Assembly: GCA_002709915.1 (NCBI GenBank) | Contig: PARF01000074.1 | Coordinates: forward strand, 1 to 32,647 | DNA: 32,647 bases | Direction: 5' to 3' | Source: Roseibacillus sp. | GTDB lineage: Bacteria; Verrucomicrobiota; Verrucomicrobiia; Verrucomicrobiales; Akkermansiaceae | Part shown: in pieces, positions 18,075 to 31,633 of the stretch | How positions within the stretch are numbered: position 1 is the stretch's first letter | Layout: every line of letters begins with the position of its first letter | Made by a program: the position numbers and the translations under genes | The notes under the pieces: model-generated | What the model was told of the DNA's origin: nothing | Seen by the model: the letters and a program-made list of their open reading frames with translations, nothing else | The model's database searches: none

Positions 18075-18863
18075 ATGGGATCGATGCAGGACCTGATTGA
18101 CACGCAGAACGAAAAAGACGATCGGAATCTGCCTATCGATCGGGTAGGGATCAAGTCCCTGAGGCACCCATGTGGGGTTGTTGGTAGAGATGGCGAACTC
18201 CAATATACGGTTGCGGATGTCTCATTAGCGGTGAATCTGCCCCATGACAAAAGGGGAACGCACATGAGTCGTTTTGTTGAGGTCCTCAACGAGTATGGAA
18301 AGCGCCTTAACGTCAGGGAGCCGGGGCTCGTGCCGCGCGAGCTTCAGAGGCGCCTCGAGGCAGAGACCGCATGGGTAACTTACGAATTTCCTTTCTTTCT
18401 CTCCAAGCGGGCTCCGGTAACAGAGAAAGAGGGCAATCTCTGCTACGAGGTCCGGTTCGAAATCGAAGCAGGTAAGACGGAAGACTTTATCCTAACGGTC
18501 ATAGTGCCAGTTACAACTTTGTGTCCATGCTCCAAGGCCATCAGCGAACGCGGAGCTCATAACCAAAGGGGTATTGTCACCTATTCGATCAGATCCTCGC
18601 AGGTGATCTGGATTGAGGATGCGATCGATATGGTCGAGGAATCGGCGAGTTCGGAGCTCTATAGCCTTTTGAAACGTCCAGACGAAAAAGCTGTAACAGA
18701 GCGAGCTTATGATCATCCGGTATTCGTAGAGGACTTGGTGAGAAACGTTGCGCGGAGGTCTGAGGAACAGGGATCAATCTCATGGTACAGGGTCGAGGCT
18801 GAGAATTTTGAATCTATCCACAATCATAGTGCCTATGCCGAAATCGAAAATGAGCTGAGGTGA
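18075..18863 (+). CDS. folE2: GTP cyclohydrolase I, FolE2 (type IB)
   Basis: FolE2 converts GTP to dihydroneopterin triphosphate, the first step of folate and related pterin synthesis. From ATG 18075 the product is 262 residues. It carries the FolE2/COG1469 signatures: DERN-like KDDRNLPIDRVGIKSLRHP near the start, NLPHDKRGTHMSRFVE, TTLCPCSKAISERGAHNQRG with the metal-ligand Cys150, and the C-terminal FESIHNHSAYAEIE. A further ATG at 18084 is equally possible, and TTG 18030 would add 15 non-conserved residues. Unlike FolE, this class does not depend on zinc and is often induced by zinc limitation in other bacteria. The downstream gene overlaps its stop (TGATG). Confidence 0.95.
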   Translation: MGSMQDLIDTQNEKDDRNLPIDRVGIKSLRHPCGVVGRDGELQYTVADVSLAVNLPHDKRGTHMSRFVEVLNEYGKRLNVREPGLVPRELQRRLEAETAWVTYEFPFFLSKRAPVTEKEGNLCYEVRFEIEAGKTEDFILTVIVPVTTLCPCSKAISERGAHNQRGIVTYSIRSSQVIWIEDAIDMVEESASSELYSLLKRPDEKAVTERAYDHPVFVEDLVRNVARRSEEQGSISWYRVEAENFESIHNHSAYAEIENELR

Positions 18864-19291
18864 TGGAGGATGCGAACGAGAAAAAAGGGTCATTGCGAAG
18901 CCCCTACATCAGCCTACCGGGAATCACCGGGATGCCTGATATTGGTGAGATTCTTGCTCACATGCCGGCTGAAGCGCACCATCGGTTCGAGTCCGCCGGA
19001 GAATTTGTCAAGCGGCTCGCGCACCGCGTGCAAAAGTGGCGGGAGCGTCTGGCCGAGGATGAGCAGCCTGTGATTCTCTGTATTCTTGCTAACGGGAGCT
19101 CCATAGAAGTCCGTTCAGTAGGCGAAGATGGGCATTCGGGCGTTGTGGTGGAGGGGATCGTAGATGGAGCCTCCTGTATGTTCGTTTCGCACCAAGCCAG
19201 TCTCCAAATTCTATGCTATACCCAGAAGGTAGAGCCGGAGGAAAGGCGGAAGATTGGATTCCATGTTGGCGGCAAGGAAATCGAGGTCTAA
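18863..19291 (+). CDS. Unknown protein coupled to folE2
   Basis: A 142-residue soluble protein whose ATG overlaps the folE2 stop as TGATG, indicating translational coupling. It has no signal peptide or membrane segment. Residues about 1-68 are helical and polar, with a Gly/Pro-rich SLPGITGMPDIGEIL. Residues about 69-130 look like a run of beta strands (VILCILANGSSIEVRSVG, GVVVEGIVDGASCMFVS, LQILCYTQ). The spacing resembles an Sm/Hfq-like small barrel (an NG turn, a bent strand, and a final S-H-x-A-S-x-Q-I strand), but this is only a pattern impression. I recognise no family. It ends 9 bases before the convergent oppD-type gene. Three cysteines are scattered and form no metal motif. Confidence 0.82.
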   Translation: MEDANEKKGSLRSPYISLPGITGMPDIGEILAHMPAEAHHRFESAGEFVKRLAHRVQKWRERLAEDEQPVILCILANGSSIEVRSVGEDGHSGVVVEGIVDGASCMFVSHQASLQILCYTQKVEPEERRKIGFHVGGKEIEV

Positions 19292-21798: not shown

Positions 21799-22386
21799 CT
21801 AGTTTATGGACGAGATTTTTTCCTGATGAAGCATCTGCACTCCTTGAAGAATACTCTGCCCTGTAGCCAGAACGATAAAGACCGAGGTGATAATGACAGG
21901 AAAAATTGGATTGATAGGAATAATTTTCAGGCCTGTCCATGAGACTGTTACCATGATTGATGCTGTGCAGGCTTTTCCTGTCCAATGAGGCTTTATCTCA
22001 ACGGAGCGTTTCAAATAGCGCAGTATTGCGATTCCGCCCCATACGATGGCATCCCGGAGAAAGACAAGCCCGACGAACCACACAGGGATCTTCCAGTTGT
22101 CGCCCCATGGAAGGAGGAAGAGGATCGTTATGGCGGTAAGAATGAGAAGCTTATCTGCGAAAGGGTCAAGAAATGCACCGAAGCGGGTTCGTTGATTGTA
22201 GCGACGGGCTATGACTCCATCAGCGTAATCCGTCATTGCGGCGACAAAAAATATCCCTACCGCCCACCAGTGAAGAGTCTCATTGGGATTGCCTGATTTT
22301 ACGCTCAACCCATAGGAGACGGCGGGCACCGCAAAGACCGGAACCAGAATGGTCCGGAGAAGCGTGAGGTAGGTCGCCGCAGTCAT
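21799..22386 (-). CDS. pgsA: CDP-alcohol phosphatidyltransferase (PgsA type)
   Basis: A 195-residue integral membrane enzyme that probably makes phosphatidylglycerophosphate from CDP-diacylglycerol and glycerol-3-phosphate. The CDP-alcohol transferase motif D-x2-DG-x2-AR-x8-G-x3-D-x3-D is complete: DYADGVIARRY through FGAFLDPFADK. About five or six hydrophobic helices surround it. ATG 22386 is preferred to TTG 22407, since MTAATYLTLLRTILVP matches the usual start. Related transferases (for example phosphatidylserine synthase) share the motif, but the ADGVIARR...FGAFLDPFADK context is closest to PgsA. It is upstream of der and divergent from rsmA. Confidence 0.9.
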   Translation of the reverse strand: MTAATYLTLLRTILVPVFAVPAVSYGLSVKSGNPNETLHWWAVGIFFVAAMTDYADGVIARRYNQRTRFGAFLDPFADKLLILTAITILFLLPWGDNWKIPVWFVGLVFLRDAIVWGGIAILRYLKRSVEIKPHWTGKACTASIMVTVSWTGLKIIPINPIFPVIITSVFIVLATGQSILQGVQMLHQEKISSIN

Positions 22387-22486: not shown

Positions 22487-23836
22487 GTGACCGGGAATGA
22501 TGTCAGGGAGGCCCTTAAGCAGGCGGGGGTAGTTCCCTCCAAGAAACTGGGCCAGAATTTCCTGACTGACCCAAATACCGCTAAATGGATTGTCGATCAG
22601 TTAGCTCCAGGTACAGAAGATTTCGTAGTGGAAGTGGGTCCGGGTACGGGCTCCTTGAGCGAGGCTCTTGTCGGCAGGGTGCGCCGATTACTTCTTGTCG
22701 AGTTTGACCGAAGGCTCGCGGATTGGCTTCAAAGGCGGTTTGCCAAAAACGACAACGTCGAGGTATTGCATGCAGATGGAGCCAGATTCGACGTGCGGAC
22801 CCTGTTCAAGGAGGGGCCTGTGAAGCTCGTTGGGAACCTGCCTTATTCTGCAGGTGGTGCAATTTTGAGAAACTTTCTCCAGCGACCGTCTCCGATCTTT
22901 CAAGCGGTCCTCATGCTCCAGCGAGAGGTAATTGACCGGATCGTGGCGAAGCCGCGAACGAAGGAATATGGAGTGCTTTCGCTTAGGATGCAGAGCGAGT
23001 GGGTGAGTAATCCAATAAAGACGATTGGCCCCGGTGTATTTTTTCCGCGTCCGGCTATTGACTCAACCGTGGTCAAGGTTAGTGCGCGGAGCGACGATCT
23101 ACCGGTCTATGATGCTCGCTTTTTTGATGAGCTTGTCCGCAGGGGATTTTCGCAGAGGCGTAAGCAACTTCGAAAGGCCCTACCATCTGGGCCAGAATGG
23201 TCTGAGGTAGCTGCTAATCTCGGCGTCGCAGAGACTGCTCGAGCAGAGGAGCTGGACCTCGCCCAGTGGATAGAGCTTTGCAGATGCTACGACCCCCATC
23301 CTCTGAGCAAGATTCCACAGCGAGATGACGAGTTGTTTGATGTTGTCAATGAGCAAGATCAGGTAGTTGGTCAGGAGCAACGTTCGGTGGTCCATAAGAA
23401 GAATCTCATCCATCGTGCCGTTCATGTCTTCATTTTGAATAAGCGTGGGGAGGTGTTTCTTCAGAAAAGGTCGAAACTGAAGGATGCTCAGCCAGGGGTC
23501 TGGGGCTCAAGTGTCGGTGGTCACCTGGATTCCGGAGAGAGTTATGAGTCTTGTGCAATCAGAGAACTTGAGGAAGAGGCCGGTCAGAAGAAGATTGGAG
23601 AAGACGTAGGGAAATTAACTCCTGTGGCGATTTTGCCGCCCACCAAGGAGACAGGATGGGAGTTCGTGCACCTTTTCGAAGTTCGCCAAACGGATCCGAT
23701 TCGCTTCCCTTGTTCCGAGGTTGAGGCTGGCATATGGATGCCTCCGGAGGAGATTTGTGCCTGGCTTTCAAGGCGCCCTGAGGATTTTTCTACCGGATTT
23801 ATTTCCTGTTGGAGGGCATGGAAAGCGGTTCGGTAG
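22487..23836 (+). CDS. rsmA: RsmA (KsgA) 16S rRNA dimethyltransferase fused to a Nudix hydrolase
   Basis: A 449-residue two-domain protein counted from GTG 22487. Residues 1-270 are RsmA, which dimethylates two adjacent adenines near the 3' end of 16S rRNA: LGQNFL (21-26), the SAM-binding VEVGPGTGS (48-56), NLPYS (117-121), FFPRPAIDSTVV, and FSQRRKQLRKAL. Residues about 275-449 are a Nudix hydrolase with an intact box G-x5-E-x7-RE-x2-EE-x-G (365-386). Its flanks (FDVVNEQDQVVGQ, HRAVHVFILN, LQKRS) resemble the YfcD/IPP-isomerase-like branch. GTG 22487 leaves the usual 20 residues before LGQNFL. An ATG at 22385 adds 34 unlike residues and would overlap the pgsA start codon. The TonB-like gene overlaps its end. 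Confidence 0.93.
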   Translation: MTGNDVREALKQAGVVPSKKLGQNFLTDPNTAKWIVDQLAPGTEDFVVEVGPGTGSLSEALVGRVRRLLLVEFDRRLADWLQRRFAKNDNVEVLHADGARFDVRTLFKEGPVKLVGNLPYSAGGAILRNFLQRPSPIFQAVLMLQREVIDRIVAKPRTKEYGVLSLRMQSEWVSNPIKTIGPGVFFPRPAIDSTVVKVSARSDDLPVYDARFFDELVRRGFSQRRKQLRKALPSGPEWSEVAANLGVAETARAEELDLAQWIELCRCYDPHPLSKIPQRDDELFDVVNEQDQVVGQEQRSVVHKKNLIHRAVHVFILNKRGEVFLQKRSKLKDAQPGVWGSSVGGHLDSGESYESCAIRELEEEAGQKKIGEDVGKLTPVAILPPTKETGWEFVHLFEVRQTDPIRFPCSEVEAGIWMPPEEICAWLSRRPEDFSTGFISCWRAWKAVR

Positions 23837-25032
23837 TTGCCAGTGGGGAAAACTCGGGCGAGACTTCCGGTGTCGTGTTGGCTCCAAGACCAGCGAAAGA
23901 AAAAAGTGTCGCCATCGCAGTAGTCGCTGCGGTGATTTTACATCTGATGGCATTTGGTGCGATGGTTGGAGGTGCCGTAATCAATATTCTGGCGGAGCAG
24001 AAGGATATCGAGGTCGTCAGTAATGCTCCTGCTGCTAGTGGAAGTGATGCTCTCGTCGAGCTGGACGCATTGGCGTTGATGGCGGTGCGTGATGCTCCTG
24101 AACAGGTAAGTGCACTCCCTCAGATTTCTGATCGAGCAAGTGAGGATACCTCTTTGCCAGAGTTGGCTGAAGCTGATTCAAAGCGCTTTGCGGAGACATC
24201 GCGGGAACAGGAGATTGAAAGCACTCCCGAAGGTGTGGTTCTGATTGGAGAACGTAATACCGAGGAGAGCAGCGAGTTAGCTCCTTCTCGTGTGGACGGA
24301 CCAGCTATTCCGACTCAGAGTGGAAGAGAATCTGAGCGAAACGAAAGAATTCTCACCGACTCCAAATTTTCGCCGGGAGAGGACGAAGGTCAGACCGGTT
24401 CCGAAGAGCCCCGGGAAGAGGTCAGGGGGTCTACGATTCGAGAGCCAGAGAGCCCAGCGCTGCAAAATGATCCGGTAGAGCCTGCTGGAGGGCGCGATGT
24501 CGTTGAGGTTCCAGTTGGTAAAAAATCAGATTTACGGCAGAAGGAGAATGAGAATTATTCAGACCGCCCGGAGAGCGTTGATACCGATGAGGGCGTAAAG
24601 GAGGGATTGAGAGAGACATCCGAAGATCGTTTAAAGGATAGTAAAGAGAACGTGGGGTTCAATACTGAGGCTCGGAAGACGAGGATGGAGGGGACGATTA
24701 GTCGCCGAGGTCAGAGTTCTCTAAAGGTGGAGGCAACAGCTCTCGGAAAATACAAGGCGCAGGTGAACAGGATCATTGAGACCGAGTGGCAGAGGCGTTG
24801 CGTGATGCACAGGGATCATGTTCTTCCAGGAATTCTGACCCTCCGCTTTTATGTCGATAAGGCCGGTCTGGTTTCCGGCCTACGTTACCTTGATGTCTTT
24901 CAAGCGAGCGCCATGCAGAAGGGTTTCACCATGAGAGCAGTTCAGCAGCCACAGTTGCCTAGAATGCCGGAGGAGGTTATCAGGGAGCTTGATGGAGAGT
25001 CTCTGGAATTTCATATAAACTTTCACTTTTGA
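23818..25032 (+). CDS. TonB-like energy transducer
   Basis: A 404-residue protein. A short cytoplasmic N-terminus leads to one membrane helix (about 30-58) containing His42, at the place where TonB and TolA carry a conserved histidine for coupling to ExbB-ExbD. A long, strongly acidic and polar periplasmic spacer follows (about 60-305, rich in Glu, Ser, Asp and Arg), not the Pro-Glu/Pro-Lys spacer of E. coli TonB. The last 95 residues form a TonB C-terminal domain (YKAQVNRIIETEW, GILTLRFYVDKAGLV, RAVQQPQLPRMPEEV, FHINFHF). The ATG overlaps the rsmA fusion by 19 bases; TTG 23809 is an alternative. exbB and exbD follow, completing the energising complex. TolA is the alternative identity. Confidence 0.88.
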   Translation: MESGSVVASGENSGETSGVVLAPRPAKEKSVAIAVVAAVILHLMAFGAMVGGAVINILAEQKDIEVVSNAPAASGSDALVELDALALMAVRDAPEQVSALPQISDRASEDTSLPELAEADSKRFAETSREQEIESTPEGVVLIGERNTEESSELAPSRVDGPAIPTQSGRESERNERILTDSKFSPGEDEGQTGSEEPREEVRGSTIREPESPALQNDPVEPAGGRDVVEVPVGKKSDLRQKENENYSDRPESVDTDEGVKEGLRETSEDRLKDSKENVGFNTEARKTRMEGTISRRGQSSLKVEATALGKYKAQVNRIIETEWQRRCVMHRDHVLPGILTLRFYVDKAGLVSGLRYLDVFQASAMQKGFTMRAVQQPQLPRMPEEVIRELDGESLEFHINFHF

Positions 25033-26940: not shown

Positions 26941-27837
26941 ATGTCTCATTCACATCATCCATCAAACCCATTTGCTCCCCATCAGGGTGGGGAGACCGCT
27001 GACAGGGGCGGAGCTAATGAGAATCCATTTCAGGTAGAGGCAGACGGTTCTCAGAGTGATTCAATGGTGCTGTCAGAGCGTGAAGCCCTGCGCCCGGAGA
27101 AAGGTTCTCGGGCCTCTGTTTCAGGAAGCCCGTTTGAGCTCGTTGAGGGGGATCGCTCAGAACTTGACGGAAGCGCGGGTCCAGGATTTCCCATGCATGG
27201 ATTTTCCTCTGGTCCCGCAGCCCTAGCTCCATTGGAAATGTCGCCATCCCGATCTGAGGTGCAGGCCTCATCCAGCGGTGCGGATACCAAATCAGATGAT
27301 TCTGAAGATACCTTTGGTGAAATGGCCTCGCCGCAGGAAAATGCCGCTTCCGCAATGAATCAAGCCGTGCCGATTTCTCCGGTTGAAAGCAAACTGCGAG
27401 GGGACTTCTCGATGCCCGCAGGTGGCAGTCAGTCCGCTGCCCGGGGGAACCCGGGGGTAGCTTTGCCGGGACAACGAGACGGTTTTCCAGTCGATCTGTC
27501 GGACCGCACAAAGCAGCTTGAGTTGCGGGCAATTTTCGGGGTGGACCATGAGTTGAGTCATCTTGAGATCATGGAGCGAATGCGCGATTTGCCGGGGATC
27601 ATCAATGTAGCAGAGATTGATCCTTCTGAGTTAGAAGCTTTCAGAAGTTTGAGAAGCTGTGCAACAAAGCTCGGATTGGGTAAAGAAGATGCGGTGATAG
27701 TAAACTCCCCGAGTGGTGTAATTGATTGTGTTCAGTATCAGGGAACAGCATTAGGGATCCTCATGGAGGGCGGGTATGGCCCCGGAGTCCGGGAGACAAT
27801 TTACATCTGCACGAGAGAGCTTGAGAGGCTCAAGTAG
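26941..27837 (+). CDS. Unknown protein with NPF-like motifs and a C-terminal domain
   Basis: A 298-residue soluble protein. The first 180 or so residues are low-complexity (Ser, Gly, Glu, Pro) and contain spaced NPF/SPF motifs at residues 9-11 (NPFAPHQGG), 28-30 (NPFQVEADG) and 63-65 (SPFELVEGD). They look like a repeated short binding peptide. The last 110 or so residues look folded, with alternating helices and strands: LELRAIFGVDHELSHLEIMERMRDL, GIINVAEI, ESFRSLRSCATKLG-like helix, DAVIVNSPSGVIDCVQY, and a final TIYICTRELERL. No signal peptide or membrane helix is seen. I do not recognise the family. It stands alone, 145 bases after def. Confidence 0.85.
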   Translation: MSHSHHPSNPFAPHQGGETADRGGANENPFQVEADGSQSDSMVLSEREALRPEKGSRASVSGSPFELVEGDRSELDGSAGPGFPMHGFSSGPAALAPLEMSPSRSEVQASSSGADTKSDDSEDTFGEMASPQENAASAMNQAVPISPVESKLRGDFSMPAGGSQSAARGNPGVALPGQRDGFPVDLSDRTKQLELRAIFGVDHELSHLEIMERMRDLPGIINVAEIDPSELEAFRSLRSCATKLGLGKEDAVIVNSPSGVIDCVQYQGTALGILMEGGYGPGVRETIYICTRELERLK

Positions 27838-27957
27838 CTTTAATGGGCTCGAATTTGCCGAAGGGCCCAGAAGCATTTAGACAGGTCGGTCTGGGCGACT
27901 AGGTGGGAGCGAAGAAGCTAATAGCCTCTGAGCTGGTCCTTGCTACCCTGTGTTGGT

Positions 27958-27963
27958 GAGGAG
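27958..27963 (+). promoter_or_regulatory. Shine-Dalgarno fixing the hydantoinase start
   Basis: GAGGAG lies 7 bases before ATG 27971 and supports that start over the in-frame GTG at 27950. Confidence 0.6.
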
Positions 27964-27970
27964 CATTCAT

Positions 27971-30900
27971 ATGGCAGAGGAATGTTGGAAGGTTCGCGTT
28001 GATACGGGGGGCACGTTTACGGACGGCTGGGCGCTGAGCCCGGATGGTAGCGAGCATCGCTGTAAGGTGCTTTCCAGTAGTGTCATAAGGGTACAAATTC
28101 AGGATGTGCTACCCGGAGGTTGGTACCAGCTCAGGGGAGCTCATGATTTTTCAGGAAATTTTCTAAGAGGTTTTCAGGTCGAGGGCGGAGGAGTGGTTGA
28201 TGATTGGAATCCTGAGGGGTGTTTGCTTTCCATTCATGGAGGACGTGCTTTTGCAAGGGGAGATGCTCTGGAAATGTTCACCGGGGAGGAACCTCCGATT
28301 CTCGCGTTGCGAATTCTCACCTCTACTCCGCTCGAAAATCCCTTTCCGAATGTTGATTTCAGGGTTTCCACGACGAAGGCGACAAACGCATTGCTGGAGC
28401 GGAAGGGCAGCAAGGGAGTTCTGATTACGACTGCAGGATTTGAAGACCTCCTGCGGATTGGTGATCAGCGCCGACCACGCCTTTTTGACCTGAAGCAAAA
28501 CCTCGAGGCCCCGGTTTTCGACTCCTGTGTTGGATTAAGTGGACGTATCGATGCCTCCGGACAGGTTGTTGAGCCTCTCAGCAGAGCAGAGGGAGCGGAA
28601 CTTGTAGCCAAGTTGAAAGCCGATTCCGTGGAGGTTGTGGCTGTCGCTCTTTTGAACAGCTATGCGAATCCCGTGCATGAGCAGGAGGTGGGCGATTGGC
28701 TGCGAGAGGCTGGGATCTCTTCGGTCTCGCTCTCTACGGATCTCACAGGTGCCATTCGACTTCTCCCGCGCGCAGAGACTGCAACCGCTAATGCCTATCT
28801 TGCTCCAGTCATGGATTCCTTCGTAGCAACCGTCAGCCGCGGGATAAATAACGGAAGCTTGGAGCTGCTTACCAGTGGGGGAGGGCTCAAGGACGCGGCA
28901 AATTATAGACCAATTGATAGTCTATTGAGTGGTCCAGCTGGTGGAGTAAGAGGTGCCCTCGAAGTGGCACGATCCGCCGGTTACGATAAGGTTATATCTT
29001 TTGATATGGGAGGCACCAGCAGCGATATTTCCCGGATTAATGGTGCACCAGTCCTGCGTTATGAGCAGAAAATCGGCCCTGCGAGAGTGGCTGCTCCGTC
29101 AATCAAGATTGAGACCGTAGCCGCAGGAGGAGGTTCAATTTGTCAGTGGTCGGGCGGGGCACTCGCGGTAGGACCGGAAAGTGCAGGGGCAGATCCTGGT
29201 CCGGCATGCTATGGTAACGGAGGTCCTCTAACGGTAACGGATGTTAATCTACTCCTTGGTTTGATGGATCCAAAGCGGGCTGGGATTCCACTCGATGTCG
29301 AAGCCGCGCGGGTCAAGTTGCATGAGTTCCAATCTCAAATGGAGCAAGATGGAGTGCCTCCGGGACCTGAGCGAAAATTACTTGAGGGGCTCCGGGAGAT
29401 AGCGATTGAGCGAATGGCGGAGGCGATTCGAAAAGTTTCGATCAGGGAAGGATGCGATCCATCTGATTACGCCTTGGTGGCTTTCGGAGGAGCCGGCCCT
29501 CAGCATGCATGTGGGGTGGCAGACAAAATCGGGATCAGAGAGGTTCTTATTCCTGGCGATGCAGGGTTACTTAGTGCGAGAGGTTTGCATCACTGTAGCA
29601 GAGAAAAAATAGTAGAGCATCAGGTGTTGTCTCGCTTGGACGTTCTCAGCGAAGGATGGCTCGAGAGAGTCGAGGCTCTGATTGAGGAGGCCTTGGAGTC
29701 GCTAGGCGAAGGGGGGGCATTGGCCAGAATACTTTGTGAAATGCGGTTGTGGGGACAGGATTCCACGCTGGAGCTCGAAATGAGTGCCATACCAGAGCAT
29801 GGTGAGTTAGAGAGGGGATTTCTTGAGAGGTATCGAAAGCTCTACGGATACGACCCTCCCGCTGGGAGGGAGATCGAACTGGTGGCGCTGAGAGTCGTCG
29901 CAAGGGTCGCTGAGGCAGGGCTTCTCCCGGAGCATTTTGGTCCGGCCCTGCCGGTTGATACGATGGAAGTCATACAAGATGCTTTCAGAACTTGTCTTAT
30001 TGAACCCGGGTGGAGCTGGGCAAAGGGTTCGCGCGGTGGGATGTATCTGGTAAAGCAGGATCAGACAGCCCCAAGCCGTCGGGAACTCTCTTCAGGATGG
30101 TCTTCAGAGATAGAGTCGGAGCTTTTCCGTTGCCGTTTTGAAGGTCTCGTAGAGGAGATGGGGGAATTACTGCGGAGGACTGCTATGTCTCCCAACATCA
30201 AGGAGCGCCTCGACTTTTCCTGTGCTCTGCTCGACGCAGCCGGAAGACTGGTCGTGAACGCTCCTCATATTCCCGTTCATCTGGGCGCAATCGGTCTGTG
30301 TGTCAGGAAAGTCGGAGAGGGTCGTAAATGGAAGGACGGAGACATGGTGATGGTGAATCACCCCGCCTTCGGAGGATCACATCTTCCCGACGTGACGTTG
30401 ATAAGCCCCGTTTTTTTCGAAGGTGGCATAATTGGCTTCATCGCGAACCGAGCGCATCATGCTGAGATTGGAGGAAAGGCACCAGGCTCCATGCCCGCGG
30501 AAGCTCGCTGTCTGGAGGAAGAAGGAGTAGTCATCCCGCCAATTCTGATCTGCGAATCGGGAAGGAGCCGGTTTGAGGCGGTCGAAGATCTCTTTCGATC
30601 GTCGCGTTATCCAAGTCGAATGCTGGGTGATAACCTCGCGGATCTTGCTGCTCAGACCGCATGTAATCATCATGGAGTCAGAGCCTTGAAGGCGCTCGCT
30701 CGAGGCTCATCCCGCGAGATCGTTATTCGGAATATGGAGGAGTTACGTCACCATGCGGCTGAGATTATGCGTTCGAAACTTGCCCCTGTCATAGGTCACC
30801 GATGGCATGGCAAGGACGCTCTTGATGATGGAACGCGAATTCAAGTGTTGCTGCGGTGCTCCGAGCAAGGCTTGCATGTTGATTTTTCGGACTCCGGGCC

Positions 30901-31633
30901 TGTCCATGCAGGGAACCTGAATGCAACAGAGGCAATCGTGAGGAGTGCGGTTCTCTACGTGCTACGAGCGTGGGTTGGTGAGGACCTCCCTTTGAACGAA
31001 GGCCTTCTTGACGACGTTCATATCAAGACGCCCGAGGGCATTCTTAGTCCCGTCTTTCCTGAGGACCCGGGCGTCTGCCCTGCGGTCGTGGGAGGGAATG
31101 TGGAGACCAGCCAGAGAATCGTTGACGTCCTTCTCGATGCGCTTGATCTGCAGGCCAACAGCCAGGGCACAATGAATAACTTCCTCTTCGGGAATGCGGC
31201 CTTTGCGTATTACGAAACCATTGGAGGTGGGTCTGGAGCGGGGCCTGGGTGGTCTGGGTTGAGCGGCACACACGTGCATATGAGTAATACCGCGATCACG
31301 GATCCGGAGATCCTGGAACGCCGGTTTCCTGTGCGCTTACTTAGCTTTTCTGTGAGAGAAGGCTCTGGAGGACGCGGTCGATGGAACGGGGGATATGGCC
31401 TCGAACGAGAGTTTGAGTTTCTAGAGGGCATGACCGTCTCAATGCTGACTCAGAGACGCACGAGGGGCCCCCGGGGGAAAAGGGGAGGAGCTGCGGGATT
31501 GCCCGGGCGGCAACATGTAATCCGGCGAGACGGATCGTGTGAGGAATTGGCGGGTATATGCAGTTTTACGGTTGAAACCGGCGAGCGGGTCCGGATCCTG
31601 ACGCCAGGGGGAGGAGGCTGGGGGAAGGCCTAG
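27971..31633 (+). CDS. Fused hydantoinase A/B (5-oxoprolinase-type) protein
   Basis: A 1220-residue protein joining both subunits of the hydantoinase/5-oxoprolinase family, which uses ATP to open cyclic amides such as 5-oxoproline or hydantoins. The HyuA half (about 1-690) has VDTGGTFTD (10-18), TNALLERKG (about 138-146), FDMGGTSSD (about 344), GGGSI and FGGAGPQHA. The HyuB half (about 716-1215) has MSPNIKERLDFSCAL, NHPAFGGSHLPDVT, ANRAHHAEIGG, GGGSGAGPG and GGRGRWNGG. The same fusion occurs in eukaryotic 5-oxoprolinase (about 1290 residues). Odd here is the stretch of about 100 residues between the first two motifs, longer than usual. The true substrate cannot be read from sequence. Confidence 0.93.
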   Translation: MAEECWKVRVDTGGTFTDGWALSPDGSEHRCKVLSSSVIRVQIQDVLPGGWYQLRGAHDFSGNFLRGFQVEGGGVVDDWNPEGCLLSIHGGRAFARGDALEMFTGEEPPILALRILTSTPLENPFPNVDFRVSTTKATNALLERKGSKGVLITTAGFEDLLRIGDQRRPRLFDLKQNLEAPVFDSCVGLSGRIDASGQVVEPLSRAEGAELVAKLKADSVEVVAVALLNSYANPVHEQEVGDWLREAGISSVSLSTDLTGAIRLLPRAETATANAYLAPVMDSFVATVSRGINNGSLELLTSGGGLKDAANYRPIDSLLSGPAGGVRGALEVARSAGYDKVISFDMGGTSSDISRINGAPVLRYEQKIGPARVAAPSIKIETVAAGGGSICQWSGGALAVGPESAGADPGPACYGNGGPLTVTDVNLLLGLMDPKRAGIPLDVEAARVKLHEFQSQMEQDGVPPGPERKLLEGLREIAIERMAEAIRKVSIREGCDPSDYALVAFGGAGPQHACGVADKIGIREVLIPGDAGLLSARGLHHCSREKIVEHQVLSRLDVLSEGWLERVEALIEEALESLGEGGALARILCEMRLWGQDSTLELEMSAIPEHGELERGFLERYRKLYGYDPPAGREIELVALRVVARVAEAGLLPEHFGPALPVDTMEVIQDAFRTCLIEPGWSWAKGSRGGMYLVKQDQTAPSRRELSSGWSSEIESELFRCRFEGLVEEMGELLRRTAMSPNIKERLDFSCALLDAAGRLVVNAPHIPVHLGAIGLCVRKVGEGRKWKDGDMVMVNHPAFGGSHLPDVTLISPVFFEGGIIGFIANRAHHAEIGGKAPGSMPAEARCLEEEGVVIPPILICESGRSRFEAVEDLFRSSRYPSRMLGDNLADLAAQTACNHHGVRALKALARGSSREIVIRNMEELRHHAAEIMRSKLAPVIGHRWHGKDALDDGTRIQVLLRCSEQGLHVDFSDSGPVHAGNLNATEAIVRSAVLYVLRAWVGEDLPLNEGLLDDVHIKTPEGILSPVFPEDPGVCPAVVGGNVETSQRIVDVLLDALDLQANSQGTMNNFLFGNAAFAYYETIGGGSGAGPGWSGLSGTHVHMSNTAITDPEILERRFPVRLLSFSVREGSGGRGRWNGGYGLEREFEFLEGMTVSMLTQRRTRGPRGKRGGAAGLPGRQHVIRRDGSCEELAGICSFTVETGERVRILTPGGGGWGKA

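Follow-up and report, generated by a model that had tools for sequence, protein, structure and literature searches.

A stretch of 32,647 nucleotides from Roseibacillus sp. (contig PARF01000074.1, below called the window) carries on the forward strand a gene whose product seems to combine the rRNA dimethyltransferase RsmA with a Nudix hydrolase. RsmA is nearly universal in cells and acts late in the assembly of the small ribosomal subunit. The locus raises the question whether the two domains truly belong to one gene, and what a hydrolase of this kind could do on such an enzyme.

Gene layout and the junction

The gene is a single open frame without an internal stop (Table 1). The earlier note, made from the letters alone, described a complete RsmA/KsgA domain and a complete Nudix domain with intact catalytic box in this one frame, and Pfam, TIGR00755, and the sequence itself agree. 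The Pfam family RrnaAD matched the N-terminal half with 170.3 bits, and the score with the ksgA equivalog TIGR00755 was 214.6 bits versus a curated cut-off of 171. Pfam NUDIX was matched at aa 309-423 with 74.9 bits, above the gathering score of 21.1. The AlphaFold2 model of the whole fusion has pLDDT of 93.7 and pTM of 0.89, and its N-terminal half matches KsgA structures; the model of the Nudix half has pLDDT of 95.2 and pTM of 0.90. When relatives were compared, the GTG start given in the earlier note was preferred over an upstream ATG at 22385. The latter was rejected as it sits in the start region of the divergent pgsA gene; it is also missing from the relatives L034-L038, and L037 and L038 have an intervening stop.

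Table 1. Features of the rsmA-nudix fusion gene, in coordinates of the window
Feature	Position	Strand	Basis or remark
rsmA-nudix fusion gene	22487..23836	+	GTG start; stop codon within end coordinate; 449 aa
RsmA/KsgA 16S rRNA A1518/A1519 dimethyltransferase domain, aa 19-266	22541..23284	+	PF00398, TIGR00755, KsgA structures
NLPY motif, aa 117-120, inside RsmA/KsgA domain		+	sequence
Short linker, about aa 267-282	23285..23332	+	translated: mostly synonymous changes, no indels among near relatives
Nudix domain, about aa 283-444, YfcD / DR_0079 / IDI group	23333..23818	+	PF00293, structure comparison
Nudix box, aa 345-367, GHLDSGESYESCAIRELEEEAGQ	23519..23587	+	sequence
His303 codon (Idi His25 counterpart)	23393..23395	+	alignment with E. 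coli Idi
His309 codon (Idi His32 counterpart)	23411-23413	+	alignment with E. coli Idi
His346 codon (Idi His69 counterpart)	23522-23524	+	alignment with E. coli Idi
Glu392 codon (Idi Glu116 counterpart)	23660-23662	+	alignment with E. coli Idi

A stop or frameshift near 23290-23310, named in the earlier note as what would separate two genes, was not found; relatives have a single frame there. In comparison with six close relatives of equal length, substitutions at aa 261-284 fall mostly on the third codon position, as in both domains, and no indels occur in this segment. The fusion was matched in 282 of 289 genomes in an order-wide search, with 273 matches at E <= 1e-100, a threshold which one half could not reach at these identities and which hence requires both; the remaining seven genomes gave no match. 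The order matches listed run end-to-end in one frame, and the nine weaker ones are cut short by a contig end or an assembly gap, and none of them is a separate gene pair. A frameshift artefact is excluded by the third-position changes at the junction together with the 273 genomes matching both halves. The assembly behind the window is a draft in 93 contigs, but an assembly error that fused two genes found no support and has a negligible probability, as hundreds of independent assemblies, some of them single-contig, show the identical frame, and the substitutions at the junction follow a synonymous pattern.

Distribution and origin of the fusion

A Roseibacillus MAG holds the closest named relative of the window fusion, with 94% identity. 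The fusion is the normal architecture across Verrucomicrobiales, including the gut bacterium Akkermansia. Outside this order but within the class, at least 73 genomes in at least 15 families have a full-length, stop-free match, while no match spanning both halves was found in 262 genomes of the phylum outside the class. The statement of the earlier note that the fusion is not a usual architecture therefore holds outside this lineage, but not in Verrucomicrobiales and related families, where it is standard. Beyond the phylum, short patterns taken from the window protein were used, which find close relatives only. Long RsmA frames outside the class (G836, G764, G743, G624, G612, and G778) were considered as other fusions and rejected; what they have in addition lies upstream of RsmA and is mostly Arg/Ala/Gly-rich read-through, and no Nudix match was found in them. 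The architecture is already on record, since a 450 aa dimethyladenosine transferase of Akkermansia with ksgA and NUDIX domains was listed in a fosmid table in 2013 (PMC3861447, Table 1 gene 34). That protein has the same two domains and comes from the same order, but it was listed without comment. No paper dedicated to the RsmA-Nudix fusion was found in a literature search.

Among 53 unfused genomes of the class, one per family, rsmA and nudix are same-strand neighbours in 23, apart or on different contigs in 27, and RsmA only is present in three; some neighbour pairs may be hidden by contig breaks in this count. The loci retrieved contain 26 neighbour pairs. In two of them (L051 and L052), rsmA and nudix are split by one in-frame stop only, and in the others, there is either an overlap of the two frames or a gap of a few dozen bases. 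In quickly built RsmA and Nudix trees, whose branches are moderately supported (least so in the Nudix tree) and whose root is unsure, the majority of fusions cluster, but those of families f34, f22, f7, and f51 tend to fall among unfused relatives. A single clade of all fusions was rejected in the RsmA tree (AU p 0.001), while the main fusion clade of 20 rows was not (AU p 0.81), both groups having been picked after the tree was seen. As the fusions do not, by this test, go back to one single event, the joining of neighbouring rsmA and nudix genes probably happened more than once. By this account, rsmA and a nudix gene next to it on the same strand would have merged in frame in the common ancestor of one large clade, and a second time in at least one other lineage. 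Some of the unfused pairs could be later splits of a fusion; joining versus splitting is left unsettled in single cases because the root is unsure.

The two halves and their nearest relatives

The fusion is the sole RsmA of the genome, as no second one scored above the family cut-off. Residues N117, L118, P119, and Y120 and the AdoMet-binding E49, G51, and G53 are invariant in 41 fusions. The N-terminal half agrees with RsmA/KsgA over its full length, in the NLPY and AdoMet-binding motifs, in fold, and in being a single copy, and the protein differs from it by the extra C-terminal Nudix domain.

In the Nudix half, the box GHLDSGESYESCAIRELEEEAGQ fits GX5EX7REUXEEXG with every charged and Gly position present, and R359, E360, E363, and E364 are invariant in the 41 fusions. 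The last hydrophobic position (U of GX5EX7REUXEEXGU) is Q in the window protein and not a bulky aliphatic residue. A fusion from family f45 (L063) has Cys in place of the first Glu of the box, GHLNAGCDYEESAQRELQEELG. An alignment was computed from 71 such Nudix domains together with E. coli Idi, YfcD, and DR_0079. Each of the 71 domains has His303, His309, and His346, and 70 have Glu392; the four residues align with His25, His32, His69, and Glu116 of Idi, which are established metal residues of that enzyme. Idi Glu114 falls opposite an alignment gap. The position of the catalytic Cys67 of Idi is occupied by Gly344 in the window protein and by Ala, Ser, or Gly in 26 of 26 aligned fusions. The catalytic Nudix residues are invariant in nearly all forms, whether fused, neighbouring, or separate.

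YfcD (Z 24.3, rmsd 1.5 A, 159 aligned residues), DR_0079 (Z 22.7), and type I IPP isomerase (Z 22.0) are the closest solved structures, and most other Nudix proteins are well removed. E. coli YfcD (2fkb) shares the Nudix box, but is a stand-alone protein and has R and V in place of the His303 and His346 counterparts; the score with the YfcD equivalog NF011922 was 75.9 bits, below the curated cut-off of 152. Enzymes of the DR_0079 type are marked by a preference for cytosine nucleotides. The D. radiodurans protein (2o5f), which is the best single-sequence PDB match, lacks counterparts of all three His and of Glu392; it is a pyrimidine nucleoside triphosphate diphosphatase (PMC5389931). E. coli Idi differs from the fusion by its Cys67 and by the absence of the REXXEE box. 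Because the three His and Glu of the isomerase site and the REXXEE residues are kept, the Nudix half joins an isomerase-like metal site to a hydrolase box, and the presence of both in one domain bears on the kinship of IPP isomerase and Nudix hydrolases. The plant Nudix hydrolase AtNUDX3 was grouped with IPP isomerase (PMC2707057) and is said to hydrolyse IPP and DMAPP (PMC6412517). Likened by description only, AtNUDX3 also has a Nudix domain attached to an unrelated enzyme, but its partner is dipeptidyl peptidase III and not RsmA. This parallel hints that hydrolase activity is possible in a Nudix domain resembling the isomerase.

Proposed function and gene surroundings

The product is probably a bifunctional RsmA-Nudix protein, a dimethyltransferase and a metal-dependent diphosphohydrolase that came from repeatedly joined neighbours. 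Judging by family, fold, and sole copy, the N-terminal domain would dimethylate A1518 and A1519 of 16S rRNA. The C-terminal domain would be a metal-dependent Nudix diphosphohydrolase with the isomerase-like metal site beside the full box, and would cleave a small diphosphate compound. It is read here as an active hydrolase and not an isomerase because the metal residues are kept, Cys67 is missing, and the Nudix box is present; the Q at the end of the box and the fusion without the first box Glu speak against activity. The substrate suggested in the earlier note, a nucleotide or an isoprenoid diphosphate, would fit the closest relatives, YfcD, DR_0079, and IPP isomerase. As to the substrate, a nucleoside di- or triphosphate is the tentative first guess, isopentenyl or dimethylallyl diphosphate is almost as likely, and some other compound is less likely.

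A type I IPP isomerase is highly improbable. IDI is one of the three closest structures, the counterparts of its three His and Glu are invariant or nearly so, and no type II isomerase was detected in the host genome; however, the Cys67 position is changed in all aligned fusions, and the Nudix half scores below the curated cut-offs of TIGR02150 (57.6 bits versus 105.8) and of NF002995. The genome, which has three further Nudix genes besides the fusion, also encodes IspH, an enzyme that produces both isomers, IPP and DMAPP. Conservation of residues in the Nudix half also fits a ligand-binding domain, and multidomain proteins are the typical setting of non-catalytic Nudix domains (PMC5389931). 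Against an inactive RNA- or protein-binding module, which is very unlikely, stands the invariance of the four charged box residues and the His3-Glu set in the 41 fusions.

The hydrolase reading leaves room for a fusion without mechanistic meaning, in which both halves are active and independent and are merely co-expressed. This null form of the bifunctional reading, compatible with it, has a serious chance, somewhat short of even: many genomes of the class manage with separate genes and the gene surroundings of the fusion are not conserved past near relatives, but the fusion arose more than once and is kept order-wide and in two genomes of 0.9 Mb (G304 and G312). Adjacency and recurrent fusion tie RsmA to one particular hydrolase, which points to a link between both jobs, and such a functional link is plausible and directly testable in Akkermansia. 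Coupling to 30S or ribosome assembly is possible. A checkpoint, where a metabolite bound or cleaved by the Nudix half would, through its level, alter the action or release of RsmA on the maturing 30S subunit, fits the repeated fusion, the class-wide adjacency, and a confident whole-protein model with a short linker. It is unlikely, as shared expression alone also yields adjacency and fusion, and rsmA and nudix are kept apart in many class genomes. It is improbable that the Nudix half handles an RsmA-linked compound, such as N6,N6-dimethyladenosine di- or triphosphate recovered from degraded rRNA, or that such a metabolite gates 30S release. If the dimethyladenosine phosphate reading were true, the enzyme that writes the mark would also bar the modified nucleotide from new nucleic acid.

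Elsewhere in the window, a frame of 143 aa (18860-19291) directly behind a folE2-type GTP cyclohydrolase gene and a frame of 298 aa (26941-27837) between the deformylase gene and a hydantoinase/oxoprolinase-type gene (27950-31633) have no Pfam match. In E. coli K-12 (L103, 381-2431), rsmA is followed by apaG and apaH; the latter encodes diadenosine tetraphosphatase and is another nucleotide-phosphate-cleaving neighbour of rsmA. Downstream of the fusion gene, a TTG-start frame of 407 aa (23809-25032), without a Pfam hit, overlaps its end by 28 bases and is followed by genes for ExbB, ExbD, and peptide deformylase. Its product is perhaps TonB-like, by position beside ExbB/ExbD. This gene order was seen in the near relatives L033-L038 only.
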